Shown here in pieces: positions 1 to 39,965 of a DNA stretch of 57,491 nucleotides (the stretch's first letter is position 1; every line of letters starts with the position of its first letter). The position numbers and the translations under genes were made by a program. The DNA comes from a virus. The notes beneath the pieces were generated by a model. It saw only the letters and a list, made by a program, of their open reading frames with translations. It was not told the DNA's origin and made no database searches. The stretch spans positions 1 through 57,491 of IMG/VR virus record IMGVR_UViG_3300042451_001035; one strand, written 5' to 3'.

Positions 1-522
1 CATAGAATAATGATCTAAATCTCCTATGTAAATAGATGCGTTTTGATGAAATGTAATATTGTTATCTTCCGGACCGGAAACGTCAGGGTAATTAATTCTT
101 TCAGTATATGCTTTACTATAGCAATTCCCATTATTAATGTTATCAGACAGACCCTCATACTTATTGTGGCAAAAGAAATAATGCTTTTGGCATCTGTAAA
201 TTTCTTTATCTGGTTCTAACTCTCTATACTTAGCTTGTAAACTAAGCGCCCAAGAAGCCATAAGATCATCATCGTCTAATCTATATATATAATCACCTGT
301 GCATTGTGCAAATCCATATTCTAGCTTTTTACCTATTGAGCTAAATCTAGTATCACAGTTTATGATTCTTACTTTTGGATGGTTAAATACATATTTTACT
401 TTGGGGCTATCATTCAAGACTACCATTTCGCTTTCGCCTTCCCAATCCTGCATTAAAAAAGACTGAATGGCTTCTTCCAATATGTGGTGTCTTTGGTATG
501 TTAAAGTTAATACACTAATCAT
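1..522 (-). CDS. Glycosyltransferase family 2-like, partial (C-terminus outside window)
   Basis: The minus-strand reading frame starts at 522-520 and runs off the left edge; 174 codons are visible. The N-terminus (ISVLTLTYQRHHILEEAI) is the usual first beta-strand and helix of a GT-A fold family 2 glycosyltransferase, and LDDDD at residues 82-86 is the DXD-type metal/nucleotide-sugar site. The family transfers a sugar from a nucleotide donor to a glycan or protein acceptor in the cytoplasm. Its start overlaps the stop of the upstream gene by four bases (ATGA), so the two are probably translationally coupled. The acceptor cannot be read from sequence. Last gene seen of the leftward sugar cluster. 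Confidence 0.85.
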   Translation of the reverse strand, partial: MISVLTLTYQRHHILEEAIQSFLMQDWEGESEMVVLNDSPKVKYVFNHPKVRIINCDTRFSSIGKKLEYGFAQCTGDYIYRLDDDDLMASWALSLQAKYRELEPDKEIYRCQKHYFFCHNKYEGLSDNINNGNCYSKAYTERINYPDVSGPEDNNITFHQNASIYIGDLDHYSM

Positions 523-1142
523 TTTTTTATATTTTTATATTTTTTAATGTCATCATCTTGTATTTTAGTAAATTGTGGCAACAAAGATGTAGTAGAAATC
601 TTGGTATCAACTCGTAAATTTTTTACATTATATCCACCGCCATTCACCCTCTCAAACAAAAAATCATCCCCACAAGCGATAAGTAGTTCCATTGGTATTG
701 TTATATAATTTTCTTTTTTTATAAACAACATACAACCCCACCCTGATGGCCTAAAGGTAGGCTTTTCTATTTCATATGGCAAACCTCTATCTATTGGATC
801 GTAATTACTGCAACATTGACCAATAATTCCTTTATCCATATGATCCTTAATAAATTCAAATATCTCAGTATTGAAGTTTATATCATCATTTAAAATAGCT
901 AAATTGGAATTTTTTGCCAAAGATACACCCAAGTTCCATGATGGATTGACAAACATATTTTCTTTAGTGCTTACAACCCTTACTTTAGGTATGATCTTAT
1001 CTATAAGATTAAAGTATTCATTTGAATTGTCAATAAGTATTATTTCATCTACCAAATGGCAATCTTGCAAATCATCAAGTAGTTTATAAATCCTATTTGA
1101 TTTCCACAATGTTGGTATAATTATGGAAAAATTAGTATTCAT
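519..1142 (-). CDS. Glycosyltransferase family 2-like, short
   Basis: A 207-aa protein with a family 2 GT-A N-terminus (FSIIIPT at residues 5-11) and a DXD-like NDD at 85-87. It is short for the family, covering essentially the catalytic domain, with no membrane segment, so it is probably a soluble cytoplasmic enzyme. The start at 1142 overlaps the upstream gene by 11 bases and the stop overlaps the next start by four, consistent with one leftward operon of sugar-transfer genes. Donor and acceptor are unknown. Confident about the fold, less about activity. Confidence 0.75.
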   Translation of the reverse strand: MNTNFSIIIPTLWKSNRIYKLLDDLQDCHLVDEIILIDNSNEYFNLIDKIIPKVRVVSTKENMFVNPSWNLGVSLAKNSNLAILNDDINFNTEIFEFIKDHMDKGIIGQCCSNYDPIDRGLPYEIEKPTFRPSGWGCMLFIKKENYITIPMELLIACGDDFLFERVNGGGYNVKNLRVDTKISTTSLLPQFTKIQDDDIKKYKNIKK

Positions 1143-2121
1143 TAATTTTTTCTTTTACATTTTGGTATATCCAAGTTGATACTTGATATTCATCTTCTGT
1201 TAATTCAGGCAAAAGCCAGTCTTGATTCATATCTTTGCTATGTAGCCATAAATGAGATACATATGGATATAATGTTCTAACTTTTTCAAGATAATCTAAT
1301 GCAATTGATTTGCTACATTTATAGAAACCCCATTCCATATCTTTTACTCCTTCCATTTCATTCCATAAATCACACATTTCCCCGCCATGCATACATCTAT
1401 CCCAATACGAGGATGCAGATACGAAATCTTCATATACATACATAAGCGTTAAAGCTAGATTATATGTTTCTCCTATGGATTTTATGTGCTTTTTACAAGT
1501 TTCTAATGTCAATGACTGCCATGAAAAATCATCTCCAATATAAATTGCCTTATCTGTATTAGCTATTTTTTCATTTGAAAGTATATCATGTATAAATAAA
1601 GAATTTGGTTCAAAATTAACCCAGCAATCATTACGAGGAAACATTTGGATATGGTCATAGCCTCTTATTTCCCTATGAATTCCATCAATACAATCTTCTG
1701 GTGTTAGATTATTATAATGGCAAGTATGTGGATCATACGACCTGCACACTATATTCTTAATAGTAGTAGGTGCTAATTCTTTAATTGCAAGGTCATCTGT
1801 ATCTATATAACTGCCACCAAACTTGTAAAGTAATACTAATCTTATTAAATCGCTTAACTCTCTAGGATGCGCATGTAAATAATATTTTTGAATATGTTCT
1901 TTAGACATAGGCAAATCATCAAATAATGTATCATCCCATCTATATATTTCAATACCAAATTTTGGGTCTAGCATCTCTTCTTTAATACTATTACTAACTA
2001 AATAAATTGGTCTTGTTGGATTAAAAACACGAGTGCTATATACGCAGTCTTGCAATATTTTTAGTCTTGATTCAGAGATATCGCCACCCCAGAAAAAAAA
2101 TATGTTTTGAATATTCATCAT
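1132..2121 (-). CDS. DXD-type glycosyltransferase (Gly_transf_sug / GT32-like)
   Basis: A 329-aa protein. Residues 89-110 carry the signature of the OCH1/capsular-polysaccharide type DXD sugar-binding family: LSDLIRLVLLYKFGG followed by SYIDTDD, with DTDD at 107-110. The N-terminus begins MMNIQNIFFFWGG; either methionine could start. The family moves hexoses onto glycans using a metal-bound nucleotide sugar. It sits in the leftward operon, overlapping both neighbours by a few bases. No signal peptide or membrane helix is obvious. Family assignment is strong; the substrate is unknown. Confidence 0.82.
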   Translation of the reverse strand: MMNIQNIFFFWGGDISESRLKILQDCVYSTRVFNPTRPIYLVSNSIKEEMLDPKFGIEIYRWDDTLFDDLPMSKEHIQKYYLHAHPRELSDLIRLVLLYKFGGSYIDTDDLAIKELAPTTIKNIVCRSYDPHTCHYNNLTPEDCIDGIHREIRGYDHIQMFPRNDCWVNFEPNSLFIHDILSNEKIANTDKAIYIGDDFSWQSLTLETCKKHIKSIGETYNLALTLMYVYEDFVSASSYWDRCMHGGEMCDLWNEMEGVKDMEWGFYKCSKSIALDYLEKVRTLYPYVSHLWLHSKDMNQDWLLPELTEDEYQVSTWIYQNVKEKINEY

Positions 2122-2756
2122 AATAAAAGCATATTGTTTTTACCAAAAAGTTCTATTTTTAATTCTTTTCTAAGAAATACAATATCTATTTGCACAAGCA
2201 CGTTATCTAAATGGTGCGCTTGTTCTAAGTTCATTGGGTAAAAACCAGCTTTATCAAAGTAATTTAGATATTCTTGTATGTCTGGTGCGCCTTCATTATA
2301 TTCTATAATAGGCATTTCAGTAAGAATTACCTTAACATTCTTCATGGTATCTGATGCGCCTTTAAGTATATCTAATTCAGATCCTTGAGTGTCTAGCTTT
2401 ATAAATTCAGGTAATGGTATATTGTTTGTTAAAACAAAATTATCTATAGTATTTGTTAATATTTTTTTAGGAATAAAATTAATATTCCATATTGTGTTTT
2501 CTTTGTAATAACTTTCTCCAGAGGCAGTTGAATCATAAAAATCAACTTCTTTGCCAACTTCATCACTTAGTAACTCAATAAAAAAATCTAATCCAGTATT
2601 TTGCAATCTTTCTTTATAATAATTAGATGCTTCAAATAAGTAAAATTTGGCTTCTGGAAGAAAACTTTTTGCATTAATAGACCAATGTCCTTGATTTGCA
2701 CCAATATCATATACTGTTTTGATGTCAAGTTTTTTGATAATTTCAATTAAATTCAT
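2118..2756 (-). CDS. FkbM family SAM-dependent methyltransferase
   Basis: A 212-aa protein from the ATG at 2756-2754. An upstream in-frame start at 2795 would give 225 aa, but the 2756 start makes the four-base ATGA overlap with the previous gene used elsewhere in this operon, and begins MNLIEIIKK, right before the fold. Motif I is VYDIGANQG (residues 15-23), the SAM-binding loop. The FkbM signature KLDTQGSELDILKG lies at 120-133. FkbM enzymes O-methylate sugars or small molecules. Placed among glycosyltransferases, it probably caps or modifies the same glycan by methylation (inference). Confidence 0.85.
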   Translation of the reverse strand: MNLIEIIKKLDIKTVYDIGANQGHWSINAKSFLPEAKFYLFEASNYYKERLQNTGLDFFIELLSDEVGKEVDFYDSTASGESYYKENTIWNINFIPKKILTNTIDNFVLTNNIPLPEFIKLDTQGSELDILKGASDTMKNVKVILTEMPIIEYNEGAPDIQEYLNYFDKAGFYPMNLEQAHHLDNVLVQIDIVFLRKELKIELFGKNNMLLL

Positions 2757-3679
2757 AGTACAGTTTTTTTGGCTACGCTTTGTATTAACTCCCAATATTT
2801 TTTTGACGCTGTACCTTCTTTTATATCCAAAGTTTCATTATAAGGCAACTTATTTATGTATAATGCTTTATAGAATAGACCGCTTTGATCATCTGTAACA
2901 CCTGCATTATGGTATATATTTAATCTGTCCCATTCTGCTTCGCTACTTGTCGCCCAAGCAAACTCTAATGCTGGATGGCATACGGTTTCTTTGCCCATCT
3001 TCCACCCATTCCAAAGTACGCTCCACATATCACTGCACCATATTTGTAGTTCATGATAAGTAGGGTTCGCTTGCTTTTTGATATTGTTTAAATCAGTAAT
3101 TTCTTTAAACAATCTTTCGCAATCTTTTTCTACATTTTCCCAATACTCCGCATTTATGCCTTTCATTAAGTATTGTGCGCCAATGCCATTTAATTCATTG
3201 TCTTTTACTACTTGCTTATCAATATCTACTATACGGCACATTTCATCAAGCACATCTTCTCCTTTGCTTATAATGTAGTCATGGCTTATATACCATCTAC
3301 AATCAGATCCATACCATTTATCATCTTGTAAAAATTGATCCCAATCAATTGGCTTGGTAAATGCAATATCACAATCATGATAAAAGATGGCTTCCTTTTC
3401 TAATTCAGGGAAAGCTTTAAAATGTTGCTTTAGTATGTTAGGTCTTATGGAAGATATATAGTGCCTTGTTTCCCTTGTATCATCATAGAAAAAAAATCTA
3501 GCTGGGTAAGCATTGGCTAATCTTATCCAATTATCTGGGATTACATTATTTACTTTCCAACATACTACATCAATATGGTTAGGATTAATCCCCATACTAA
3601 TGAAATTATTCAAAAGGGTTTCCACCTGCCAAACGTAATAATCGCTTGCAGGCTGCGCGCAGACAAAACGTAAATTCAT
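2753..3679 (-). CDS. Putative glycosyltransferase with DXD motif
   Basis: A 308-aa protein beginning MNLRFVCAQPASDYYVWQ. Residues 99-104 read FYHDCD, a DXD motif at the end of a beta-strand as in GT-A enzymes, followed by aromatic-rich segments. The exact CAZy family is not clear to me; GT8-like or an uncharacterised phage group are both possible. Second gene of the leftward cluster, six bases from the small gene before it and overlapping the FkbM gene. Role inferred from motif and neighbours. Confidence 0.65.
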   Translation of the reverse strand: MNLRFVCAQPASDYYVWQVETLLNNFISMGINPNHIDVVCWKVNNVIPDNWIRLANAYPARFFFYDDTRETRHYISSIRPNILKQHFKAFPELEKEAIFYHDCDIAFTKPIDWDQFLQDDKWYGSDCRWYISHDYIISKGEDVLDEMCRIVDIDKQVVKDNELNGIGAQYLMKGINAEYWENVEKDCERLFKEITDLNNIKKQANPTYHELQIWCSDMWSVLWNGWKMGKETVCHPALEFAWATSSEAEWDRLNIYHNAGVTDDQSGLFYKALYINKLPYNETLDIKEGTASKKYWELIQSVAKKTVL

Positions 3680-3684
3680 AAATT

Positions 3685-3876
3685 TTAATTTACTTCAACA
3701 ACTTCAGATGCTGATTGAGAAGCTTTGTATTGCTCCATTGCTAATCCTTGAATTAAATTAACAATTTCAATGCCATATTTTGTAGGCATTTCGCTTGCTA
3801 ATCTGTGTAAATGCTCGGTTTGAGCTGGATTTAAAGATGGAAACGGGATTGATACTGGTTCAGTTACTTGACTCAT
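3685..3876 (-). CDS. Small protein of unknown function
   Basis: A 63-aa protein (starts MSQVTEPVSIPFPSLNPAQ) with no motif I recognise. It has a predicted amphipathic helical middle (LHRLASEM, IVNLIQGLAMEQYKA) and no cysteines or membrane segment. It precedes the sugar-cluster genes by six bases and follows the DUF6165-like gene after a 44-bp AT-rich gap, so it is probably in the same transcript. A partner of one of the transferases is possible but unsupported. Confidence 0.55.
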   Translation of the reverse strand: MSQVTEPVSIPFPSLNPAQTEHLHRLASEMPTKYGIEIVNLIQGLAMEQYKASQSASEVVEVN

Positions 3877-3920
3877 ATGTTTTATTTTTTTTGCTAAATT
3901 AATTAAATTTATTAATATTC

Positions 3921-4298
3921 CTAATATTCCTTGTAAGACTTTTCTTCTACTAGCTCGGAGCCATACTTAGTGTTTATCTGCTTCTTGATAATTGCCCTCA
4001 CATCATTCAATTGGTACACTTCCCTAGCTAGTCCTATGAACTTTTCGGTAAATGACTTCATTCTTTCGCACTCCCTTAGATCATCCTCTACTTTCCATAG
4101 CTTTTTGTTTATGTTATAGAGTTCTTGTGTTAGTGGATCTGTCAATGCTTCTGGATGCTTTCTTTCTAATGCTCCCTTTATGTATTTCCACTCTTTCTCT
4201 ATATTCTCTAACTTATCTTTCTCGTATATAAGTAATTTTTTTATGGTAAGGATAGTATATTTATCTGCCACCTCACCGATGCTTGCTTCTATCTTCAT
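3921..4298 (-). CDS. DUF6165-like protein
   Basis: A 125-aa, mostly helical, charged protein. The opening IEASIGEVADKYTILTIKK, the middle LWKVEDDLRECE and the end GSELVEEKSYKEY match what I recall of DUF6165, a small domain often found fused to or beside TPR and glycosyltransferase proteins. Function unknown. First gene of the leftward sugar cluster and divergent from the plus-strand fusion gene at 4378. Family call is from memory of the pattern, without a search. Confidence 0.65.
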   Translation of the reverse strand: MKIEASIGEVADKYTILTIKKLLIYEKDKLENIEKEWKYIKGALERKHPEALTDPLTQELYNINKKLWKVEDDLRECERMKSFTEKFIGLAREVYQLNDVRAIIKKQINTKYGSELVEEKSYKEY

Positions 4299-4353
4299 AA
4301 TGTAAAGGTAGTAATTTTATTAATATTTATTTAATTTAATTAATTTAATTTTA

Positions 4354-4361
4354 TAGCTTTG
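4354..4361 (+). promoter_or_regulatory. Bacteroidota -7 promoter element (TAGCTTTG)
   Basis: TAGCTTTG fits TAnnTTTG and ends 16 bases before the ATG of the methyltransferase-glycosyltransferase fusion. A clear TTG -33 box is not seen in the AT-rich stretch upstream. The 79-bp gap between divergent genes must also hold a leftward promoter; TACCTTTA on the other strand is a weak candidate. Confidence 0.5.
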
Positions 4362-4377
4362 CCTAAAACATATAAAC

Positions 4378-5742
4378 ATGCCAACAAGCTATCCTCTTTA
4401 CAAAGATTCTGTCAGAAATTGGTTTTTACAAAATGTTTCATTAAATGCGTCTATATTGGATATTGGAGCAGGATGTGGGACTTATAGTGATTTAATTCGT
4501 GGTTATGGCTATAAGATGGATGCAGTAGAAATATGGCAGCCCTATATTGATAAATACGAATTAAATAAAAAATATGGTGTAGTTTATAATGAAAACATAC
4601 TTACCATAGGGTTTGACATACTTAATAAATATGATTTTTTTATTCTAGGTGATGTTTTGGAACATTTATCAGTAGAAGATGCGCAATGGCTTATGCTTTT
4701 TTTAAAACAAAATAACAAGCGATATCTTGTAGCAGTTCCATACGAAATGTTTCAAGGAGAATACGAAGGTAATGTCCATGAAACACACCTACAGCCTGAC
4801 CTTACGCCTGAAAATATGCTAGAAAGATACCCTGATTTAGAGTTACTTTATGGCAATAATTACTATGGTTACTATACAAATAAAAAACAAAAACATGAAA
4901 AAGCTTATGTCCTTTATGCTGACGATTCCTATTTGGATCTTGTGGATGCTTGTTGTCGTTCCATTAGAAACTTTAGCACTTATCCTATTTACGTTTATAT
5001 GCTTAATTCGGACAATAAGGTAAATGTAGAAAATACCAAAACCATAAGATGGGAATGTGATGTAATTCACTTAAAAAAGCGCAATGAATACATAAAAAGA
5101 GAAGATAAGCAAATCTATAAGCTATTAATAGAGCGACCTAAGATAGTATTAGATGCCTTGAAATATGCTGAAGTAGTTGCCTATGTGGACACAGATAGCA
5201 TAGCAAATTGGAATGTAGATTTTATTTTTGATTACTTTAATGCAGAATCAGATTATCCATATTTTACAAAAGGCATATACGATTTCTTAATAATCAATGG
5301 CAAAGGTGGTGCAAGTAGCTATGATGATTTAAGTAATACATTAGAAGCTCCATTATGTGAATTGTTTAAATCAGACCAATCAATAAGAAAATACACCGGC
5401 TATAGACAAACTGGTTATTTTGTTGCAGGTCAAAAAACTATTGATTTCTTAGATATTTGGAGCCATAGATGTCAACATCCAATGATATTAAAAGACAATG
5501 CAAGATATGCACCCTACAACGAAGAAAGCGTTTTGCAAACTTTAATCTATGATTTTAAAGCAACGAATGGTTTGCCATTAGTTTATGTAAATGGCTTACG
5601 CAAAGGACTTGAGTTTAAAGGACATGAGTATTTTATGGGCGAATGGTTCAAAGTACCAGCACAAAAAGACGATTTACTTTTTTATCATGGAGAAAAAGAT
5701 ATAGATAAGATTAATGAATTTATTGAATATTTAAAGTTATGA
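4378..5742 (+). CDS. SAM methyltransferase fused to a glycosyltransferase
   Basis: A 454-aa two-domain protein. Residues about 20-125 form a class I methyltransferase: SAM loop DIGAGCG (28-34) and GDVLEH (91-96). Residues about 175-454 look like a GT8-style GT-A domain: a strand AYVLYADDSY (176-185) and VAYVDTDS with DTD at 271-273. One polypeptide could therefore transfer a sugar and methylate it, or the methyltransferase half could act on a precursor. Soluble, cytoplasmic. It overlaps the next gene by four bases (ATGA), so the two are co-translated. The fusion is seen directly; the substrate is unknown. Confidence 0.75.
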   Translation: MPTSYPLYKDSVRNWFLQNVSLNASILDIGAGCGTYSDLIRGYGYKMDAVEIWQPYIDKYELNKKYGVVYNENILTIGFDILNKYDFFILGDVLEHLSVEDAQWLMLFLKQNNKRYLVAVPYEMFQGEYEGNVHETHLQPDLTPENMLERYPDLELLYGNNYYGYYTNKKQKHEKAYVLYADDSYLDLVDACCRSIRNFSTYPIYVYMLNSDNKVNVENTKTIRWECDVIHLKKRNEYIKREDKQIYKLLIERPKIVLDALKYAEVVAYVDTDSIANWNVDFIFDYFNAESDYPYFTKGIYDFLIINGKGGASSYDDLSNTLEAPLCELFKSDQSIRKYTGYRQTGYFVAGQKTIDFLDIWSHRCQHPMILKDNARYAPYNEESVLQTLIYDFKATNGLPLVYVNGLRKGLEFKGHEYFMGEWFKVPAQKDDLLFYHGEKDIDKINEFIEYLKL

Positions 5743-7781
5743 AGATAGTATTACTTTGCCCATCGTTAAGTACTGGTGGGATGCCTCAATTTGCCTTAAA
5801 AAGAATTCAAGAAATATTAAAGCATACAAGCAATATAGAAATGTATTGTATTGAGCTTAATTTTCATGGAGCTGACTTTGTGGTGCAAAGGAATCAAATA
5901 ATAGATATACTTGGAGATAGGTTTTATGAAGCTGGAGAGGATAAGATGCGAGTAATGGATATTATTAACGAAGTAAAGCCAGACATAGTACATATTGAAG
6001 ATGTGGCAGAAAGATTACCAATAGAATTGGCTACTGCATTGTATAACAATAGTAGAGATTATAGGATAGTAGAAACCCCACATGATGTTATTTTCAATCC
6101 TGATGCAGATAAGCTTTTTCACCCTGATTTGTACGCCTTTTGTACGCCTTTTCATGAAAATGTTTACGCTGGCATGGATTCCAAATACTTTACCATTCAG
6201 TACCCAATAGAAGAAAAGAAGGTAACAGATGAGATGAAATTTGAAGCAAAGAAGAAGCTTGGATTTTCTTTAGATAGAAAAACTGCTTTGCATATTGGTC
6301 TTTGGACTCCACAGAAGAATCAAAAGGAAACAATTGCCATTGCAAGGAAGTTTCCAGATATTGACTTTGTGGTAGCGGGGAATATGGCGGGGAACTTTCA
6401 GTTTTATTGGGAGGATTTAATTAAGGACTTGCCATCTAACTTTAAGGCACTTGGAGAACGTAGCGACATTGATACTTTGTTGCAAGCAGCAGATATTTTT
6501 ATCTTCCCTTCTACCAATGAATGTTCTCCTTTATCCTTACGCCATGCTATTGAGGTTGGTTTGCCCATTGTAGCCAATAATTTACCAGCTTATGAAGGAA
6601 CACTAGATAAATACATAAAGCCCCTAGAAACGGATTTAAACACCATTACAAGGGATTACAAGATACCAAATAGCAATAACTCAAGAAGATTTGCGCTAGA
6701 TCACGAAAAAATGTACGAAACAATACTAAAGTTTTCTATTAGAAAACAAATGGTAACTTTCCATGTAAACTTTATTGGTGCGCCATTTTTAGAGATAAAA
6801 GGGATAAGTGATAGCAATTTTCTAGTTAAGTTTTATGATGAAAAGAACGAGTGCCACTACACCAATACAATTAAAGCAAACCATTGGGTAAAATTAAACC
6901 GCCAGTGGTTTACCAAGTGGACTATTCGTGTATGGGAGAACGGGCAAGATTTAGTTTACAAATACACCCTTGACTTAGAAGATAAAGAAGTATTAATCAC
7001 AATAGACAGCAAGGCATTGGGTGATACAATGGCATTTATACCCTATTGTGAGGCGTTTCAGGAGAAGCATAAGTGCAAGGTAACTGTTTCTACCTTTTGG
7101 AATAAAATCCTTGATTATCCCAATTTAAAGCTTATTGAACCCGGTCAGTCAATTGGATGCTATGCAATGTACCATCTTGGATATTTTCATGATTCCGATA
7201 AGGAACCTGTGCCTGCAAATAAAGTTCCCCTTCAACAATCCGCTTCTAACATTCTAGGGCTTGATTATGTTGAGTTGGTACCGAAGGTTAAGGTAAACAG
7301 AGAAAGGCTGGATTTGGGCAGATATGTGGCAATAGCGACTAATTCTACTGCACAATGTAAGTTCTGGACTCGTGACCAATGGCAAATTTTAATAAATTAC
7401 CTTCATTCTAAGGGATATAGGGTAATAAATGTTTCAAGAGAAACTAATCCATTTGATAACTGCGAACCTATCTCAAACACTTCCATTGAATATACTATGC
7501 AGGTTATTGCGGGAGCTGAATTTATGGTGGGATTATCGTCAGGCTTAAGCTGGTTAGCTTTTGCCATTGGCACCCATGTAGTTCTTATAGCTAATTTTAC
7601 AGCAGTAGATTACGAATTTAGTACTAATTGTACTAGAATAGTCAATCCAAAGGTCTGCCATGATTGTTGGAGTGATCATAAATTGGATGCGTCACAATGG
7701 AATTGGTGTCCCCGAAATCAAAACTTTATCTGCCACACTTCAATAACAGCTCAAATGGTTATAGAAAAATTGCCTTTGTAG
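5739..7781 (+). CDS. GT4 glycosyltransferase fused to a TibC/BAHT-like protein heptosyltransferase (GT9)
   Basis: A 680-aa fusion. Residues 1 to about 340 are a GT4 GT-B enzyme: STGGMPQFALK near residue 10 and NECSPLSLRHAIEVGLP near 260. In the usual E-x7-E pair the first Glu is E261, but the second position is His269. After a beta-rich link (about 340-415), residues 420-680 resemble GT9 heptosyltransferases (KALGDTMAFIPYCEAF; GLSSGLSWLAFAIG near 598). The end carries Cys640-x2-Cys643-x13-Cys657-x7-Cys665 with WNWCP. This matches the iron-finger cysteine set of autotransporter O-heptosyltransferases (TibC/Aah, BAHT), which put heptose on Ser of adhesins. A virion protein substrate is my inference. 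Confidence 0.75.
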   Translation: MKIVLLCPSLSTGGMPQFALKRIQEILKHTSNIEMYCIELNFHGADFVVQRNQIIDILGDRFYEAGEDKMRVMDIINEVKPDIVHIEDVAERLPIELATALYNNSRDYRIVETPHDVIFNPDADKLFHPDLYAFCTPFHENVYAGMDSKYFTIQYPIEEKKVTDEMKFEAKKKLGFSLDRKTALHIGLWTPQKNQKETIAIARKFPDIDFVVAGNMAGNFQFYWEDLIKDLPSNFKALGERSDIDTLLQAADIFIFPSTNECSPLSLRHAIEVGLPIVANNLPAYEGTLDKYIKPLETDLNTITRDYKIPNSNNSRRFALDHEKMYETILKFSIRKQMVTFHVNFIGAPFLEIKGISDSNFLVKFYDEKNECHYTNTIKANHWVKLNRQWFTKWTIRVWENGQDLVYKYTLDLEDKEVLITIDSKALGDTMAFIPYCEAFQEKHKCKVTVSTFWNKILDYPNLKLIEPGQSIGCYAMYHLGYFHDSDKEPVPANKVPLQQSASNILGLDYVELVPKVKVNRERLDLGRYVAIATNSTAQCKFWTRDQWQILINYLHSKGYRVINVSRETNPFDNCEPISNTSIEYTMQVIAGAEFMVGLSSGLSWLAFAIGTHVVLIANFTAVDYEFSTNCTRIVNPKVCHDCWSDHKLDASQWNWCPRNQNFICHTSITAQMVIEKLPL

Positions 7782-7821: not shown

Positions 7822-9381
7822 TTATTTATTTTTAAGTTGCTCTATTTCTGATTTTAACTCTTGGATAGCTTTTAGCATTGGGGTAATTAATCGCATATAT
7901 TCAATACCTACCATTTCTTTTGTACCATCTTGTTTAGCATTATAATTGATTAAAAAGTCTGCTATTGGTGCAGTATCTTCTGCAATTAATCCATAAACTA
8001 ATTCATCATAAACTTCATCTGTATATTTTTCTTCTTCATCTTTTTTACGATAATTAAAAGTAACAGGATTTAAACTATAAATCCAGTCTACATTTGACAA
8101 ATTTTGTATATTTTTTTTAGATGCACGAATAGATGAAATTCCACCTATTCTATAATCACTACCAATATATAATATTCTTGTTGTAGCTACTGCCGTATTA
8201 TTATAAACAGCAGCATTCATGTTAATATTACCATTTGATGTGATTCTGATTCGTTCTTCAAGACTACCACTTCCACTTCCGCCAGTTTGAAATATAATAC
8301 TACCACCACTACCACCCGATAAATACGATTGTATTTTTAAATCAATGTTTGTACTATTTATATAGTTTCCAGTATATGATGCTTCTTGTCCTATTGCAAA
8401 TCTTGTATTGTTTCCGCTTTCGCCTATTGATATTACATCACTTCCTAATGCTCTAATTATATGCAAAGACGCAGTAGGACTACTCGTTCCGATTCCAACG
8501 TTACCACCCGATGTGATTATCATTTTTGTACCAGAAGAGCCATCAGTCCAAAATTCTATACCTCTTGAAGTAGCGGCTGCTATATATAAATTATCAGCAG
8601 TGCCAGCAAATATTCTATGTGTACCATTTGTAATACCAGTTAATCCTAATGTTCTGTAAGTACTACCATAAGTTCCGTCATATCCTAAATATAAAGTTGA
8701 TGCAGCCGTTATAGTACTTGAGAATGTAGCAGCACCAGTAGATGATATAGTAAGTCTTGGAGTACCGCCACCAGTTGCTAATTCCATTTGATCACTTGAA
8801 TGACTATACAAAATATAACCAGTATATGCACCACTACCAGAGGTTGCATCTGCAAACATTAAACCACTTTGACCAGTTGTGCCACCGAATATTGTTATGC
8901 CTTTTGCACCAGAGCCATTGCCTACAACTAGATTTCCATATCCACTTGAATCAAGAAACGCTTGAGGATTTGAATAACCTATTCCAATTAAACCATTGTT
9001 AGAAATAAATAATCTATCAGTTCCGGTTGTAGCATCTGCGCCTTGAGAATTTCCTTGTCTTATTGCAAAATCTCCAAAGTTATTATTGTTAGTTATAATA
9101 GTCCAATCTCTTGTTGCTACGTTTGTATTTGTTGCTTTCCAATATGCAGCAATAGATGTGCCATCTGTAATAGTTAATCTAGCGGTTGACATAGCAGCAG
9201 ATCCAAAAGCACCACTACCAGTAAAAGTTGCACTTGTACCTGTCAAAGCACCAGTAAGGTTAGTAGCTCCTGTTACTTGTAGTTTAAATGAGGCATTGGC
9301 AGCACCGCCTATTCCTATATTAAGAGAGGTGTCTTGTTGAACACTTTGCGCAAGTAAACCTAATTTGTTTGTAAGCCCCAT
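7822..9381 (-). CDS. Tail fibre with C-terminal S74 intramolecular chaperone domain
   Basis: A 519-aa protein. An N-terminal module (LNIGIGGAANASFKLQVTG, then LTGALTGTSATF) is shared with the neighbouring fibre. A long Gly/Ser/Thr-rich beta-structured shaft follows, and from about residue 416 a peptidase S74 (endosialidase chaperone) domain: NPVTFNYR, YGLIAEDTAP, then a coiled coil AIQELKSEIEQLK. S74 domains trimerise fibres and cut themselves off with a Ser-Lys dyad. Here the dyad region is SSIRASKKNI (416-425), one residue longer than the usual SDxRxK spacing, so cleavage may be altered. Last gene of the leftward fibre operon. Probably a receptor-binding fibre. Confidence 0.85.
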   Translation of the reverse strand: MGLTNKLGLLAQSVQQDTSLNIGIGGAANASFKLQVTGATNLTGALTGTSATFTGSGAFGSAAMSTARLTITDGTSIAAYWKATNTNVATRDWTIITNNNNFGDFAIRQGNSQGADATTGTDRLFISNNGLIGIGYSNPQAFLDSSGYGNLVVGNGSGAKGITIFGGTTGQSGLMFADATSGSGAYTGYILYSHSSDQMELATGGGTPRLTISSTGAATFSSTITAASTLYLGYDGTYGSTYRTLGLTGITNGTHRIFAGTADNLYIAAATSRGIEFWTDGSSGTKMIITSGGNVGIGTSSPTASLHIIRALGSDVISIGESGNNTRFAIGQEASYTGNYINSTNIDLKIQSYLSGGSGGSIIFQTGGSGSGSLEERIRITSNGNINMNAAVYNNTAVATTRILYIGSDYRIGGISSIRASKKNIQNLSNVDWIYSLNPVTFNYRKKDEEEKYTDEVYDELVYGLIAEDTAPIADFLINYNAKQDGTKEMVGIEYMRLITPMLKAIQELKSEIEQLKNK

Positions 9382-9385
9382 ATCT

Positions 9386-10939
9386 TTATCTATTAATAAG
9401 TGAGTTTATTGTTTGTTGTTGTTCGTTTACTTTTTGTGTTAGTTCTTGGATGGCTTTAATCATTGGGGATATAAATTGGTCATATCTTAATGCCATAGTA
9501 TCTGTTTCTTCATCATATACATAACCACCAAAATCAATGTCACCTAAAACTTCTTTAACTTCTTGTGCTATTAAACCATAATGATTTCTTTTACCTTCAT
9601 TTGCAGTAATTGTTCTTTTTACTACTTCATTTTCATTATCGGATTCACAAGTTTCAACACTATTTCCACCCACTATCCATTTATAAGATACTGGTCTTAG
9701 TTTATTTATAAAATCTAAACCTAAATTTGAATTAGTAATATCTTTTTTTTGCCTTGCATCGGATGTTTGTATCGTTCCATTTGCTGCCCAAATAGCAGAC
9801 CATCTTGCTCCGCTTGCTCCCATTGTATATGTATTATCAACTCCGGCTTTTATTGCACTTTGTGGATACATTAAAATATCAACACCACTATCTGCTGCAA
9901 TTTGAAATGAATTTGCATCTGCATATAAATAACCAATTGCTCCACCACCATTTCTTTGCAATCCTATTAACGAACTAGCTATTCCATTTACAACTAATTG
10001 ACCTCTATTTGTATTGCTGTAGATTGGAGTATCTGTACCAATAAGGACTTGTGTTCTTTCCGAATTACCATTGACTCTAATTCTTTCAGCACCATTAGTA
10101 CCGATACGCATAAAATCTCCGGTGTGATTATATTCAAGAAAACCTATATACAAAGCTGCACCACTACCATCACCAAAGTATAAACTTGATACTCCATTTG
10201 TTGCCGCACCTATTGAAATTACATTGTTACCACTAAAATCACCAACTTGTAAAGCACTATTAGGACTAGTCGTTCCGATTCCAACGTTTCCATTCCCAAG
10301 TATTGCCATTCTATATGCGTCAGCAGTTACGGAGTAAATTCTAAATGCTGCCGTTGCCGCTACGCCACCATCACTTTGAATTATCCAATCCGATGCAGTA
10401 CCTCCATTATTTTTTAATCTTAAACCACTTGCAGATGCACTACTTTCCATTGTAATTGCAGTAGTAGCGGATGTATTAAATGTAGCAGCACCAGTAGAGC
10501 CACTTAATCTAAATCTTGTTACATCTGCTGTTTGTATAACTAAATCAGTATATGCTCCAGTAGTACCATAAGATGTACCTAAAAGTGCATCAGTTCCATT
10601 GTGTCCTATATAAGTAAATGAATCAGTAGCACTTGCTATTGTAGCTATACCATAATTTCCACTTGTAGCTTGTTTAGACCATACTTTTCCATTATCTCCA
10701 CCGCCTACACCAGCAGGTCTGCCAGTTGTATTTATAGCTAAAACTCCTGATGTTGTTGCTAATGTAACTCCACTAGTAAAACTAGCACTTGTACCTGTCA
10801 ATGCCCCTGTAAGATTAGATGTACCAGTTACTTGTAATTTATAACTACCAGAAGCTGCTCCTCCTATACCTACATTATAAGATGAATCTACTGCTATTGC
10901 ATTTGATAATATTGCGTTACCTGTATTTAATGATGGCAT
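9386..10939 (-). CDS. Tail fibre with C-terminal S74 intramolecular chaperone domain (paralogue)
   Basis: A 517-aa paralogue of the next gene leftward: same N-terminal module (NVGIGGAASGSYKLQVTG), a divergent beta-rich shaft, and an S74 domain from about residue 392. The dyad region SDARQK has the classical spacing (Ser393, Lys398), followed by HYGLIAQEV, a Tyr/Asp-rich segment and a coiled coil QELTQKVNEQQQTI. Expected to trimerise and release its chaperone. Two fibres with one base plan but different shafts suggest alternative receptors or a hetero-fibre. Four bases separate the two genes. Confidence 0.87.
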   Translation of the reverse strand: MPSLNTGNAILSNAIAVDSSYNVGIGGAASGSYKLQVTGTSNLTGALTGTSASFTSGVTLATTSGVLAINTTGRPAGVGGGDNGKVWSKQATSGNYGIATIASATDSFTYIGHNGTDALLGTSYGTTGAYTDLVIQTADVTRFRLSGSTGAATFNTSATTAITMESSASASGLRLKNNGGTASDWIIQSDGGVAATAAFRIYSVTADAYRMAILGNGNVGIGTTSPNSALQVGDFSGNNVISIGAATNGVSSLYFGDGSGAALYIGFLEYNHTGDFMRIGTNGAERIRVNGNSERTQVLIGTDTPIYSNTNRGQLVVNGIASSLIGLQRNGGGAIGYLYADANSFQIAADSGVDILMYPQSAIKAGVDNTYTMGASGARWSAIWAANGTIQTSDARQKKDITNSNLGLDFINKLRPVSYKWIVGGNSVETCESDNENEVVKRTITANEGKRNHYGLIAQEVKEVLGDIDFGGYVYDEETDTMALRYDQFISPMIKAIQELTQKVNEQQQTINSLINR

Positions 10940-10940
10940 T

Positions 10941-11198
10941 TTACTTTTGTTTTAATTCATTTGCTTTTTGTAATTCTACATAAGCTGCAATTACCTCTGA
11001 AGTCCAAATTGCATTAGCTATTGCTTTTACTTTTTCGTTTTCATTAGTAATATCATCACCCGGAGATACAGCATGTCTATGGTATGTTCTTGTTAATTCT
11101 ATGCCATCTTTTTCAATGATTGTAGCAGTTCTTACTTGAATAGAATTGTTTTCTACTAATTCTATTTTGTCAATGATTGTTTTTTCTGTTAATGCCAT
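10941..11198 (-). CDS. Small fibre-locus protein of unknown function
   Basis: An 85-aa protein with a beta-rich first half (IIDKIELVENNSIQVRTAT, YHRHAVSPGDD) and a helical end (AIANAIWTSEVIAAYVEL). Similar small proteins occur beside tail fibre genes in many phages; I do not know a proven role. It lies between the collagen-like protein and the S74 fibres with gaps of 17 and 1 bases, so it is co-transcribed. A tail accessory or assembly factor is possible. Confidence 0.65.
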   Translation of the reverse strand: MALTEKTIIDKIELVENNSIQVRTATIIEKDGIELTRTYHRHAVSPGDDITNENEKVKAIANAIWTSEVIAAYVELQKANELKQK

Positions 11199-11215
11199 TT
11201 TATTAATTTTTAAAT

Positions 11216-14200
11216 TTAAACATAATATGTACCCGCTAATACAACATAACCAGCACCATCATAACTTACGCTTGATGTAGTACCGCCTCCTGCTGGATAT
11301 TGTGATATAAATATTAAAGTATTGCTTATTTGTACTCTTGCAGTCATTATACCATTTGCACTTAATGTAATATTTGATGTTTCACCAATAGCACAAGCAG
11401 GATATATACCTGCTGCGTCAGCAACGTAAGGCAATCCACCAATATACAAATTTCCAGTTCCAGTTCCAGCACTCCAATCACAATATAAATTAAAATTTAC
11501 TGCTCTACCTATTTTTACATAACGACCATTTTGTGCGGAATAAGTTGCAGTTCCAGCAGTTGAACTACCTACCACAACTGGAGTAAAAGAACCTTCTTCA
11601 TAATCATCTAAATTATTTGCGTTATTAACATTTACTTCCGTTGTTGGAAATTGAATACCTCCCGTTGTTGCGGTTGCTCCACCTATCCCAATTCCACTTG
11701 AGAATGTAGCAGCACCGGTAGAAGCTATTGTAAGTCTTGGAGTAGTGCCGGTTTGTAATATTAAATTTCCACCACTTTGTTGAAATATCCCACTACCATA
11801 ACTACCACCTCCATTAAAAAATATACCACCATTTGCATAAGTAAATACATCGCTACCAAATGTAGCACTTCCGGAAAATGTAGCAGTACCGGTATTTCCT
11901 ATTGTAAGTGCGGGTAACCAAGTTAATGCAGCGTTAGCAGTTCCGCTTACTGCAAATTCAAATGTATGAGTACCTATATTTGCTATGTATCTTGTTGCAC
12001 GATTTGTAGTTTTATATTTCCAACCTCCATCATAATATCCATTACCCACAATTCCGATTTCTTGGTCATAGCTATAATAAGAACTATTACCATTTTGTAT
12101 AGCAAATAAACCCGCTAAACCTCCATAAATATTTGATTGACCACCTATTGCTAATTGACCACTAAACGTAGCACTTGTACCACTTAAAGCTCTAGAAACT
12201 AAAGTAACAGTAGTACCATTATCTGTAATTGCACTATCTCCTATTGTAGCTGTTGCTGTGAACTTTGGTATTGTATTAACTGTACCACTTCCACCAATAC
12301 CACTATAAGCTCCTACTGCATAAGAATAAGCATATACTACTACTATATCATTTAATTGACAAGCAGTTCCTAATACTATACTTGTACCATTGGTCGCAGT
12401 ATATTCTGATTGAGCTAAATTAGATCCATTATAAAATACATCTATTAACCCTTGTGTATATGTAACTGCAAATGTGGTCTGACCAGCAGTCGCAGTAAAT
12501 GTAGTTATTGTCCTTAAAGCATTTGTTGGTAAAAATGCAGTTAAGTAGTTATCAATTTCAACAATCTGACCAACTGTTAAAGCATCTGTTAATACCACAG
12601 TAGTACCATTGGTCGCTGTATAATCCACGCCATTAACCAATTTAACTCCATTCACAAACACATCTACCATCCCTAAATTATACCCATTAGCTACAGTAAA
12701 TGTAGTTTGACCAGCCGTTGAAGTAAACACCTGAACCGCCCTCGCTGAAGTTGTTGCCATACCACTCGTTCCAGAAGAACCAGATGTACCAGTCGTTCCA
12801 GAAGTTGCTGACGTACCAGACGTACCAGTCGTTCCAGACGATCCAGAAGAACCTGACGAACCAGATGTCCCACTCGTACCTGCGGTGCCAGATGAACCAG
12901 AAGTTCCAGTCGTGCCAGATGAACCTGACGTACCACTAGAACCAGCCGAACCAGATGAACCCGTAGATCCATCAAGACCACTTGTACCAGAAGTACCACT
13001 TGAACCAGCCGAGCCACTTGAACCTGTATTTCCACTAGAACCATTGATACCACTAGAACCAGAAGTTCCACTCGTACCAGAAGTTGTACCTACAGCTATA
13101 CCAATTTGTTTTATGTTGGTAATAATTGAAGGTGCTGCTGGTATTGCTCCTGCTGCCGCCACTGCTGTTATTTGAACATGGTTGCTATCTGATGAGAAGT
13201 AAACCTCGTAGTAATCTCCTGCATTTGCGCTATCAATGATAGAAACAAATGGCAATTGTTTAGTTGAGTTAGAATTTAAACCTAAAATAGAGTCTGTTCT
13301 AATGATATTGCTACCATTTTTCTTTAACCAAATATCAACTTCGGAAGCTGAACCACCTTGAGTTTTTTCTACTTGTAATGAATAACCTATTTCATAGATA
13401 CCAGTATGTTGAACAGTAAGTTGTGAACCACTGAAAACAATACCATTACTATATTCATCATTTGTATATGTAATTGGAGTTGGTGTATTTGCCGCAGTTA
13501 CCACTTGAGTAGCTGTACTTGTAAACGCACCATACCAGTTAGCAATAGAAGCACCTGAAGTACCATCAATACCATTACGACCTGAAGTCCCTGCCGTACC
13601 ACTGCTGCCACTAGATCCACTTGTGCCTGACGAACCACTGCTGCCACTGCTGCCAGAAGTTCCAGTCGTACCACTTGTTCCAGCCGAGCCACTAGAACCA
13701 CTCGTACCGCTAGATCCATCCCCTCCACTCGCACCATCCAAGTTAATTGCCCATGATGAATAAGTTCCACCACCTACTGTTCTAAAAGGCGCGCCAAAAG
13801 ATAAAGAACCTGTTGATGGATTATAAGCTGTAACCTCACACTCTTGGAAGTTATTAGCGTCATAAACCACAATAATAGATTGAGCTACCGTATATGCTAA
13901 TTGAGTTGCTACAGTTATTGTTCCTGCATTACCCAAAGTAAATGTTGATGTTGATGTTGTGGCATATCTATCTCCCTGAACACCACTTGTACCACTTGTA
14001 CCAGCTGTTGCAGATGTACCAGATGTGCCAGATGTACCAGAAGTCGCTGATGAACCTGACGTACCAGATGTTGCTGATGAGCCAGATGTACCAGATGTAC
14101 CTCCTGTGCCATCTGTTGCAGATGTACCAGAACTGCCTGATGTACCAGATGTACCAGTTGAACCTGATGAACCAGATGAGCCAGAAGTACCAGAAGTACC

Positions 14201-14527
14201 TCCCGTACCATCTGTAGCAGAAGTTCCAGACGTTCCAGATGTAGCACTTGAACCTGATGATCCAGAAGTTCCAGACGAACCTGATGATCCAGTTGTGCCA
14301 GAAGTTCCAGCCGAACCTGACGTACCAGTCGTGCCTGAAGTACCAGACGTAGCAGAAGTTCCAGACGTACCAGACGTTCCAGCCGTACCACTACTACCTG
14401 CCGTTCCAGATGTACCTGATGAACCAGAAGAAAAACTTGTAGCTGTAACGATACCATCGTTTGCAACAAGAACTCCATTTAGCCCTCTAACTTTTAAATC
14501 GCCCGAAAAAAGACCTTGTATACTCAC
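11216..14527 (-). CDS. Collagen-like Gly-X-Y tail adhesin, Ser/Thr-rich
   Basis: A 1103-aa protein. After a short head (MSIQGLFSGDLKVRGLNG) it has three collagen-like tracts with Gly at every third residue and X/Y almost only Ser, Thr or Ala. They lie at about 13979-14427, 13550-13735 and 12757-13083. Proline is absent from the triplets. Between them are beta domains, one C1q/TNF-like in style (YNGIY-type strands, residues about 325-475). After tract three come two copies of a fibre repeat (VFTSTAGQTTFTV / TFTATAGQTTFAV), the LTGALT-type module seen in the S74 fibres, and a tailspike-like end (DDYEEGSFTPV). Likely a trimeric fibre; Ser/Thr make it a good glycan acceptor (inference). Confidence 0.8.
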   Translation of the reverse strand: MSIQGLFSGDLKVRGLNGVLVANDGIVTATSFSSGSSGTSGTAGSSGTAGTSGTSGTSATSGTSGTTGTSGSAGTSGTTGSSGSSGTSGSSGSSATSGTSGTSATDGTGGTSGTSGSSGSSGSTGTSGTSGSSGTSATDGTGGTSGTSGSSATSGTSGSSATSGTSGTSGTSATAGTSGTSGVQGDRYATTSTSTFTLGNAGTITVATQLAYTVAQSIIVVYDANNFQECEVTAYNPSTGSLSFGAPFRTVGGGTYSSWAINLDGASGGDGSSGTSGSSGSAGTSGTTGTSGSSGSSGSSGTSGSSGSSGTAGTSGRNGIDGTSGASIANWYGAFTSTATQVVTAANTPTPITYTNDEYSNGIVFSGSQLTVQHTGIYEIGYSLQVEKTQGGSASEVDIWLKKNGSNIIRTDSILGLNSNSTKQLPFVSIIDSANAGDYYEVYFSSDSNHVQITAVAAAGAIPAAPSIITNIKQIGIAVGTTSGTSGTSGSSGINGSSGNTGSSGSAGSSGTSGTSGLDGSTGSSGSAGSSGTSGSSGTTGTSGSSGTAGTSGTSGSSGSSGSSGTTGTSGTSATSGTTGTSGSSGTSGMATTSARAVQVFTSTAGQTTFTVANGYNLGMVDVFVNGVKLVNGVDYTATNGTTVVLTDALTVGQIVEIDNYLTAFLPTNALRTITTFTATAGQTTFAVTYTQGLIDVFYNGSNLAQSEYTATNGTSIVLGTACQLNDIVVVYAYSYAVGAYSGIGGSGTVNTIPKFTATATIGDSAITDNGTTVTLVSRALSGTSATFSGQLAIGGQSNIYGGLAGLFAIQNGNSSYYSYDQEIGIVGNGYYDGGWKYKTTNRATRYIANIGTHTFEFAVSGTANAALTWLPALTIGNTGTATFSGSATFGSDVFTYANGGIFFNGGGSYGSGIFQQSGGNLILQTGTTPRLTIASTGAATFSSGIGIGGATATTGGIQFPTTEVNVNNANNLDDYEEGSFTPVVVGSSTAGTATYSAQNGRYVKIGRAVNFNLYCDWSAGTGTGNLYIGGLPYVADAAGIYPACAIGETSNITLSANGIMTARVQISNTLIFISQYPAGGGTTSSVSYDGAGYVVLAGTYYV
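12757..14427 (-). repeat. Low-complexity DNA encoding Gly-Ser/Thr triplets (three blocks)
   Basis: Three blocks of near-repetitive 9-nt units (antisense appearance: accagaagtt, ccagacgtac, cacttgaacc) encode the Gly-X-Y tracts of the collagen-like protein. They are about 449, 186 and 327 bp long with unrelated coding DNA between. Such tracts can slip or recombine and change length between isolates. They also create long open frames on the opposite strand rich in Val, Pro, Asp and Glu, which are not genes. Confidence 0.85.
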
Positions 14528-14529
14528 AA

Positions 14530-15072
14530 TTAAACGTATTTAAATGTTGTTAAATTTTTGTTTTGACCATTCAACTTAGCTTTTAATGTAGTTGGTTTTA
14601 AGCCAAGTACATCGGCTGCCTCATTGATACCAACGTAATAAATGCCAGTTGATTCATCTAATATTAATTTAGATGTCTTTTCCCTTGCTTTTCTGCCATT
14701 GGCGGCTCCATTTTTTTTACCTCCATTACTTAATGCTTTAAGCATTTTATCATTTACAACTCTTAAACCAGTATCGCAAGCATGTTTTTGATTCTCTGAT
14801 GGCGTACACCATTCAAGATTAAAAAGCATATTATTTGCCTTATCCCCGTCTATATGATTAACTTGAGCTTTATTTTCAGGGTTTGGGATATACGTTTCTG
14901 CAACTAATCTATGTATAGTTTGCCACTTACACCCTTTTTCGTTAAATAACTGAACACGAGGATATCCTGCTGTAGTCTTGTTTGTTTGACTCAAAAATCT
15001 CATTGAAAACAATGAAAAGATTTTACCGTCAACGGTAACTAAGTAATTTGGATATTCTTTAATTTGGCGCAT
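14530..15072 (-). CDS. HNH homing endonuclease (NUMOD4-HNH-NUMOD1)
   Basis: A 180-aa protein. Residues 4-25 (IKEYPNYLVTVDGKIFSL) are a NUMOD4 motif. Residues 54-94 carry the HNH core HRLVAETYIPNP...VNHIDGDKANN (71-81) and LEWCTPSEN. The C-terminus (VGINEAADVLGLKPTTLKAKL) is a NUMOD1-type DNA-binding helix-turn-helix. These free-standing enzymes cut phage DNA at specific sites and spread by repair. It sits neatly between two structural genes with 2-3 base gaps and interrupts neither. Confidence 0.9.
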   Translation of the reverse strand: MRQIKEYPNYLVTVDGKIFSLFSMRFLSQTNKTTAGYPRVQLFNEKGCKWQTIHRLVAETYIPNPENKAQVNHIDGDKANNMLFNLEWCTPSENQKHACDTGLRVVNDKMLKALSNGGKKNGAANGRKAREKTSKLILDESTGIYYVGINEAADVLGLKPTTLKAKLNGQNKNLTTFKYV

Positions 15073-15075
15073 ATG

Positions 15076-15627
15076 TTATTTTACTAATATTCTTACAAAT
15101 TCATTTAGGTAGAACGCAACATCTGAAGATACAGTTAGAGTACCTGTAGATGAATTCCAAGATACTTGATTTCCAGATGGAACACCTGATGTGATAATTG
15201 TACCAACATCAATACCACCTCTTGATGCATAAAGTAAAGTTGTATTTATTGCTTCAGAGAATGTGATACTTGCTGTTCCTTCTACTGCAAACTTAGAGTA
15301 CTCGCGTACGCCTTGTCCACCACCGCCCGGTACTACGTTACCACCAGAGCTACCATTAGCTAATATTTCTTGTGCTATACCAATTTTAGATCCACATAAA
15401 GCATAAACATAATTTGCTACGCCTTGTAATGTTTGTGGATTATCACCTGTACCGTTTTCTAGATTTTGATCATTACCATATTCTAAGGCTTTCCATTCCA
15501 TATAAAGCTGAATTGGTTTACGAGGATCAATGGTGCCATTAAAAAAAACCCTTTCCTTTGGGATACTACTATTCCAAAGGTATTCAGATATTTTCGCTAA
15601 AGATATTACTTCTGCTGGTGTTGCCAT
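15076..15627 (-). CDS. Putative virion/tail protein
   Basis: A 183-aa protein. The N-terminal half is helical and charged (EVISLAKISEYLW, RKPIQLYMEWKALEY). A Gly-rich hinge (about 96-105: SSGGNVVPGGGGQG) leads to a beta-rich end (TLTVSSDVAFYLNEFVRILVK). I do not recognise a family. Its place between the fibre genes and the next small structural gene, overlapping its neighbour by one base, suggests a tail or fibre-attachment component. Confidence 0.6.
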   Translation of the reverse strand: MATPAEVISLAKISEYLWNSSIPKERVFFNGTIDPRKPIQLYMEWKALEYGNDQNLENGTGDNPQTLQGVANYVYALCGSKIGIAQEILANGSSGGNVVPGGGGQGVREYSKFAVEGTASITFSEAINTTLLYASRGGIDVGTIITSGVPSGNQVSWNSSTGTLTVSSDVAFYLNEFVRILVK

Positions 15628-16145
15628 TAGAAAAAGTATGATGAGTTAGTAGATATAAATGTTGCTCTATTCAATGCAGATTGTGCGCTGAATATATCTG
15701 AAGCAAATGAAATTGCTTGATATGCGCTATCCAATTCTACTCTTAAAATCATTTTTGTTTGATACCAATTTGTACTAGCAGTCAAATTAGAATTTGCCAC
15801 CTGACTTTCAGTTAGACCATAATAAAATGTTTCATTATATGCAGTAAATGCGTATGATGTAGTTTTATTTGCAACAAGAACATTACTTGATGTTAACCAT
15901 TGAACAGTTATACTTAATGCGGAATCTTGTGTTAAAACATTTAAACTGATACTTACGTCTGCTAAAGCCCAATCAATATAATCTGTAGTTGTTCCAGTAG
16001 GAACTAGATAAGTACCATTTGATTGTAATAAATATACTCTACGCTTCGCAATGGTTACGTCTGAACCAGTTGAAGTATCTGTAAGAGTTATAATATTAGG
16101 CGTGCCACTATTTTGGCTTGCTGTGAAATTTGGAGAAATTGGCAT
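15627..16145 (-). CDS. Putative virion/tail protein, beta-rich
   Basis: A 172-aa protein from the ATG at 16145-16143. An upstream TTG at 16163 would add six residues but lies inside the promoter box TATATTTG, so the ATG is preferred. The sequence is beta-rich and Ser/Thr/Asn-rich (MPISPNFTASQNSGTPN, SISLNVLTQDSALSITVQW), like many phage tail or neck proteins. First gene of the leftward fibre operon. Function not known. Confidence 0.62.
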   Translation of the reverse strand: MPISPNFTASQNSGTPNIITLTDTSTGSDVTIAKRRVYLLQSNGTYLVPTGTTTDYIDWALADVSISLNVLTQDSALSITVQWLTSSNVLVANKTTSYAFTAYNETFYYGLTESQVANSNLTASTNWYQTKMILRVELDSAYQAISFASDIFSAQSALNRATFISTNSSYFF

Positions 16146-16160
16146 TACTAAAAATTTACC

Positions 16161-16168
16161 CAAATATA
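16161..16168 (-). promoter_or_regulatory. Bacteroidota -7 promoter element (TATATTTG) for the fibre operon
   Basis: TATATTTG on the minus strand is a full match to TAnnTTTG. It sits 16 bases before the chosen start of the first fibre-locus gene, and just downstream of the short gene at 16186-16350. No convincing TTG -33 box was seen. It would give the fibre genes (16145 to 7822) their own transcript. Confidence 0.55.
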
Positions 16169-39584: not shown

Positions 39585-39965
39585 TTAAGGTGCAGCCGTT
39601 GTTGTTGTAGTTGCAGAACCTTGTAATAATAAATAATTACCAATAATACCAAATGCAACAATACCACTTGCTGCAATTGATGTAACATCAGCTTTTGATG
39701 TTAAATTAACGCCAGCAACAGATACCCAGTTAATAGGCACTTCTGGTGCTGGTAATAATTGTCCTGTAATAGAACCATTATCATTTGTAGTACTAAAACT
39801 AATTGTTCCAGATGTTCCTACAAATTGAACTACCGCTGAATCCCATCCAGATAAATCTTGATAAAAAGAATTATTTGTGTTAAATGATTCAGTCGCATCT
39901 ACAGTTGTACTAATTTTTGAACTGAATTTTTGTAGTCTTATTAAAAGCTTACTTACCGTTGCCAT
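39585..39965 (-). CDS. Small virion-like protein with Thr-rich tail
   Basis: A 126-aa beta-rich protein ending in GSATTTTTAAP. This is the same Thr-Ala-Ala-Pro unit found in the long linkers of the 2053-aa muzzle-like protein and in the tail of the 45655-46026 protein. The body (SGWDSAVVQFVGTSGTISFS) has no motif known to me. Gene order between portal and capsid suggests a head surface protein. The short tail may be a remnant or a minimal acceptor site. Confidence 0.55.
   Translation of the reverse strand: MATVSKLLIRLQKFSSKISTTVDATESFNTNNSFYQDLSGWDSAVVQFVGTSGTISFSTTNDNGSITGQLLPAPEVPINWVSVAGVNLTSKADVTSIAASGIVAFGIIGNYLLLQGSATTTTTAAP

Follow-up and report, generated by a model that had tools for sequence, protein, structure and literature searches.

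A phage-borne TibC/BAHT-like transferase beside a proline-free collagen-like fibre gene: a candidate fibre glycosylation cassette

When a phage carries a block of glycosyltransferase and methyltransferase genes next to its fibre genes, on what do these enzymes act? The question is raised by one linear virus record of 57,491 bases (this whole stretch is called the window hereafter), which has nine genes of interest at its left end. The features discussed below are as follows, with supporting matches in brackets.

1-522, minus strand: GT2 glycosyltransferase, truncated by the contig end; accessory, variable (PF00535, E=6e-11)
519-1142, minus strand: GT2 glycosyltransferase; accessory, variable (PF00535, E=1.3e-7)
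1132-2121, minus strand: GT32-like glycosyltransferase (Gly_transf_sug); accessory, variable (PF04488, E=1.5e-8)
2118-2795, minus strand: FkbM-type SAM methyltransferase; accessory, variable (PF05050, E=2.4e-14)
2753-3679, minus strand: predicted GT-A-fold glycosyltransferase, conserved core (phrog_4417, E=7e-66)
3921-4298, minus strand: DUF6165 protein, conserved core (PF19662, E=4e-10)
4378-4872, plus strand: SAM methyltransferase domain of the two-domain protein 4378-5742 (TIGR03587, E=1e-5; PF13489, E=0.0015)
4873-5742, plus strand: predicted GT-A-fold domain, C-terminal half of 4378-5742 (invariant DxD and HGEK; fold match)
5739-6752, plus strand: GT4 domain of the fusion protein 5739-7781 (PF00534, E=1.9e-14)
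6753-7781, plus strand: thumb-less TibC/BAHT-like protein O-glycosyltransferase domain, by homology (PDB 4rap; TIGR04414)
7822-9381, minus strand: fibre protein with C-terminal peptidase S74 chaperone (PF13884)
9386-10939, minus strand: fibre protein with C-terminal peptidase S74 chaperone (PF13884, E=2e-13)
11216-14527, minus strand: predicted acceptor, fibre-like, with proline-free Gly-(Thr/Ser)-Ser collagen-like tracts (PF01391, E=2e-35)
27034-33195, minus strand: Thr-rich linker structural protein; candidate acceptor, unsupported (22 runs of four or more Thr)

The glycosylation block and its relatives

Six genes of the block adjoining the fibre genes encode seven glycosyltransferase (GT) domains between them, a total reached by adding two hidden GT-A domains to the GTs named by Pfam; the block also has two methyltransferase domains. 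Those missed by Pfam are 2753-3679 and the C-terminal half of 4378-5742. A DxD motif is invariant in the alignments of both, and Foldseek matches their predicted structures to glycogenin/UGGT (AlphaFold pLDDT 94.4, E about 1e-6) and to GT6/UGGT (pLDDT 92, E about 1e-7), respectively; as modelled, both are GT-A-fold transferases. The N-terminal methyltransferase of 4378-5742 is weak by Pfam and clearer by TIGR03587. A sequence-only reading of this DNA had described the block as converging on the fibre locus. The block is real, but its larger part (1-4298) lies on the minus strand, as do the fibre genes (7822-16163), and only the plus-strand part (4378-7781) is convergent with them.

We found no nucleotide similarity of the window to known phages. 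Its terminase has about 80 relatives in IMG/VR, and the nearest isolates are phages of Flavobacterium, Cellulophaga, Tenacibaculum and Maribacter (terminase identity about 21-30% among the matches listed), which makes a host in the Bacteroidota probable. One related record (G010, IMGVR 3300032323_002596), a 59.9-kb contig, is probably a palindromic assembly artefact, since it has two inverted copies of its terminase and Thr-linker genes.

The GT4-BAHT protein was present in 30 of 50 relative records, the remainder being mostly short. Four elements recur in the records that were examined in full: phrog_4417, DUF6165, the methyltransferase-GT-A protein and the GT4-BAHT protein. The DUF6165 gene adjoins the cassette in unrelated phages too, and an in-frame fusion of 1136-1179 aa unites the methyltransferase-GT-A protein with GT4-BAHT in several phages. 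The four left-most genes (GT2, GT2, GT32 and FkbM) mostly do not recur in these records: neither the GT2 gene at 519-1142 nor the GT32-like gene had a homologue in any of them, and the truncated GT2 had weak ones in two records of the window group (G022 and G031) and also in G040. The four are unconserved even in the nearest relative (G005), the GT4-BAHT protein of which is 96% identical.

A TibC-like transferase domain without the thumb

The key gene, 5739-7781, is named by Pfam as GT4 plus GT9, and is a GT4 domain fused to a TibC/BAHT (bacterial autotransporter heptosyltransferase) domain. Its C-terminal half matches TibC (PDB 4rap) with E=1.6e-42 and, at 212.9 bits, exceeds the NCBIfam TIGR04414 cut-off of 200. 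TibC residues Asp-110, Lys-230, Trp-305 and Thr-226 align with D429, K541, W605 and T537 of the window, and across 29 phage sequences the equivalent positions vary little or not at all. In all 29, the catalytic Asp, Lys and Trp are invariant, and so are the three iron-finger Cys that were checked (C640, C643 and C657, aligned with TibC Cys-339/342/358). A fourth Cys is invariant among the phages (alignment A1), Cys-370 itself falling beyond the aligned TibC segment. The link to TibC/BAHT enzymes suggested beforehand is supported by the matches and by the catalytic residues. TibC, a heptosyltransferase, is reported to act on Ser, not on Thr (PMC4358343), and the BAHT domain would, by homology, be a protein Ser transferase.

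The domain shares its catalytic Asp/Lys/Trp and iron-finger Cys with the TibC/TibA and AAH/AIDA-I systems of E. coli (PMC4358343; TIGR04414), and in these systems, as in the window, a Ser-rich repetitive surface protein is encoded nearby. Unlike TibC and AAH, the window enzyme is phage-borne and is fused to GT4 (in some phages also to the methyltransferase and GT-A domains). It also lacks Arg-286 and the thumb. The sugar-contact Arg-286 of TibC is replaced by Thr-586 in the window and by Thr throughout its group, with Arg in 3 of the 29 phages; as this residue is needed in TibC, the donor could have changed. The beta-hairpin thumb, which builds the TibC dodecamer, is deleted in the window group, and it is shortened or absent in the bacterial BAHTs paired with Gly-X-Y proteins (sequences listed). 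Whereas the partner of TibC and AAH is an autotransporter passenger, that of the window enzyme is a Gly-X-Y fibre: no autotransporter family match was found by Pfam near the BAHT gene, the neighbours of which are the Gly-X-Y protein and the S74 fibres. Some phages (L685, L816, L820 and L821) have a second, partial or divergent BAHT-like frame upstream of the main one.

The nature of this domain bears on two readings in which no virion protein is the target. Glycosylation of modified phage DNA is a known role of some phage GTs (PMC12619734), but it sits badly with a protein Ser transferase, and general domain scans of the proteins recognised no hydroxymethyl-pyrimidine synthesis gene; we regard it as very improbable here. 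Surface polysaccharide clusters often contain GT2, GT32 and FkbM genes, and the variability of the left-hand genes would likewise suit a block that alters the host surface glycan, for superinfection exclusion or receptor change. However, no flippase or Gtr-type membrane protein was seen in the block, its proteins show no clear membrane segment (one borderline stretch lies in the BAHT core), and a modification of the host surface leaves unexplained both the protein-Ser target of the BAHT family and its pairing with Gly-X-Y proteins, which makes this reading unlikely.

The Gly-X-Y protein and its pairing with the transferase

The sequence-only reading had noticed a Gly-Ser/Thr collagen-like protein and Thr-rich linkers in three structural genes, and both were found. 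The collagen-like protein (11216-14527) has 80 Gly-X-Y triplets in runs of six or more, in which every third residue is Gly; Ser and Thr fill 86% of the X and Y positions, and Pro is absent. Ser occupies 73% of Y positions in the window and 72-76% across phage tracts, in which X is mostly Thr or Ser; this Ser bias at Y fits a Ser-specific enzyme, as judged from sequence. The C-terminal part of the protein has modules in common with the S74 fibres (E=4e-12). An HNH endonuclease gene, which only some relatives have, lies between the fibre genes (14530-15072).

The Thr-rich linkers (27034-33195, 39585-39965 and 45655-46026) fared less well as the acceptors that they had been proposed to be. BAHT occurs in 4 of 25 records with such linkers, the other 21 having linkers without BAHT, and this weak association, together with the reported Ser-only activity of TibC (PMC4358343), led us to reject them as specific acceptors. 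Could the enzymes nevertheless act on some other virion protein (the linkers, the S74 fibres or the capsid), the Gly-X-Y protein being a mere neighbour? The three linker genes would favour this, as would a Thr-linker protein that adjoins the cassette in one phage (G211) and the tail and capsid glycosylation reported in mycobacteriophages (cited in PMC12619734). However, at least 2 of the 4 records with both linkers and BAHT also carry a Ser/Thr Gly-X-Y gene near BAHT, and in bacteria BAHT pairs with small Gly-X-Y proteins, so that we find another virion target rather unlikely.

A synteny search for joint gain and loss of transferases and acceptors had also been suggested, and was run on viral contigs sampled by DNA pattern for the type of Gly-X-Y repeat, independently of BAHT. 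Of 50 contigs that matched the pattern GTSGTSGTS and had a confirmed Ser/Thr Gly-X-Y frame, 26 carried BAHT, as against 0 of 47 real matches of the proline control GPQGPAGP (the sole reported match, 4e-4 with three stops, was discounted) and 1 of 50 for the lysine control GPKG(D/E)KG, the exception also carrying a Ser/Thr tract. The GPKG set includes some short records, and the controls may carry Ser/Thr tracts elsewhere in the record. The Fisher test gives about 1e-15, or 2e-7 when restricted to AT-rich records, kinship among phages being ignored in both cases. Many BAHT genes have a Ser/Thr Gly-X-Y gene within a few kb; measured from the pattern hit alone, 14 of 26 lie within 12 kb (8.3 expected), a modest excess over chance, and closeness judged in this way was set aside as evidence.

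The association is not complete. Whereas BAHT accompanies the Ser/Thr tract in 26 of the 50 records, at least seven records of 66-219 kb (G104, G107, G119, G123, G131, G143 and G146) have Ser/Thr Gly-X-Y proteins with neither BAHT nor GT9. Substitute enzymes were sought in the BAHT-negative phages: no GT9 was found, and GT4-like proteins occurred in 2 of 24 (one above the cut-off), and both candidates were rejected. Host enzymes, incompleteness or another role of the tract may account for these phages.

Within the window group, each BAHT-positive record read whole also encodes a Ser/Thr-rich, proline-free Gly-X-Y gene, which usually adjoins the BAHT gene and is convergent with it. Both genes are also present in five records without a recognisable window-like terminase (G040, G042, G043, G045 and G048), and in phages lacking such a terminase a portion of the Gly-X-Y protein has 76-84% identity. 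In the Microcystis phage Mel-JY01 (PP395634.1; L231, 2-3049), a Ser/Thr Gly-X-Y frame lies near BAHT, and the annotation there mostly shows hypothetical genes of the other strand. Transfer of this kind among unrelated phages would also be seen if fibre and cassette were exchanged as a unit by aquatic phages, neither acting on the other, and the Fisher tests are blind to kinship. Such hitch-hiking would have to accommodate the absence of BAHT from phages of similar AT content with Pro-rich Gly-X-Y proteins, the recurrence of the pairing in bacteria with unrelated small proteins, and a loss of the thumb that tracks the pairing; we consider it quite unlikely.

The bacterial evidence comes from a single GTDB genome scan, which gave 80 BAHT loci. 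Of the 20 closest bacterial BAHTs, 15 have a proline-free Ser/Thr Gly-X-Y frame in the flank retrieved, as against none of the other 60. Several of the partners are small and secreted-looking or lipoprotein-like, and 20 bases separate the two frames in Methylobacter. In a quick tree, whose root split is weakly supported (75), one side holds all 29 phage rows, all 15 Gly-X-Y-paired bacterial rows and three unpaired rows, and the other TibC and 49 unpaired rows; the thumb deletion tracks the same division (rows listed). In Lentisphaeria, three loci (L626, L631 and L632) have BAHT 26-35 bases from charged, Ser/Thr-poor Gly-X-Y proteins, which by their sequence are another BAHT/collagen-like pairing.

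A proposed mechanism and the donor sugar

Homology, catalytic residues, co-occurrence, fusions and thumb loss were computed; that the reaction takes place, at which site, with which sugar and in what sequence of steps, is inferred. It is fairly probable that the conserved core glycosylates the phage's own collagen-like fibre, with BAHT adding the first sugar to Ser of the tract. The core (GT4-BAHT, methyltransferase-GT-A, the phrog_4417 GT-A and DUF6165) would act in the host cytoplasm, before assembly. The best reading of the sequences is that Ser of the Gly-(Thr/Ser)-Ser tract, mainly that at the Y position, would be O-glycosylated. Because the thumb that closes the TibC ring is missing, BAHT probably acts as a smaller assembly on the extended repeat. 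Extension and methylation of the first sugar may fall to the GT4 and GT-A domains of the fusion and to the variable GT2, GT2, GT32 and FkbM enzymes on the left, and the glycan might plausibly stabilise the proline-less triplets and shield the fibre. The three purposes put forward beforehand (protection of linkers, stiffening of proline-free triplets, masking against antibodies or host defences) are all conjectural.

The first sugar is probably a heptose, D-glycero-D-manno-heptose from host-made ADP-heptose. HldE kinase-like genes were found in 6 of 44 BAHT phage records and in none of 24 large phages without BAHT, which taken alone is a weak indication; none is above the curated cut-off, G110 and LR756501 being near it. 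An adenylyltransferase domain above cut-off accompanies the gene in G110, GmhA is above cut-off in a 636-kb phage with BAHT (LR756504), and G211 has the operon-like order GT4, BAHT, HldE II (4e-32), HldE I (1.6e-26). No ADP-heptose synthesis gene was found in the near-complete relatives of the window group that were searched, or recognised in the window, and the donor would thus come from the host; the description of the system as self-contained was not borne out. The proposal of the Gly-Ser/Thr protein as acceptor, by contrast, gains support from the conserved residues, from the co-occurrence in phages and bacteria, and from HldE beside BAHT in one phage.

Side-chain sugars on Gly-X-Y repeats have precedents in the exosporium protein BclA and in mimivirus collagen, whose repeats are Pro- or Lys-rich and are served by other transferases; in the window, the tract is proline-free Gly-(Thr/Ser)-Ser and the sugar is predicted only. 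Glycans on phage virion proteins are themselves reported for the capsid and tail tube subunits of mycobacteriophages (Freeman et al. 2023, as cited in PMC12619734), whereas for the window they are predicted, the target being a collagen-like fibre and the key enzyme BAHT-like. In our literature search no paper joined the words heptosyltransferase, collagen-like and phage, and nothing linking O-heptosyltransferase with phage looked relevant by title and single mentions.

Tentatively, and with somewhat less than even confidence, one might speculate that the thumb-less BAHTs of phages and bacteria are a separate subfamily dedicated to proline-free Gly-(Thr/Ser)-Ser repeats, in which the sugar replaces proline as the stabiliser of the fibre, and that the pairing moves between unrelated phages as a cassette. 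From the present analysis, one family of phage glycosyltransferases acquires a probable acceptor, and a code emerges that can be tested, namely a proline-free Ser/Thr Gly-X-Y protein together with a thumb-less BAHT. If sugars do replace proline, this would explain how phages and bacteria make collagen-like fibres without proline or its hydroxylation.
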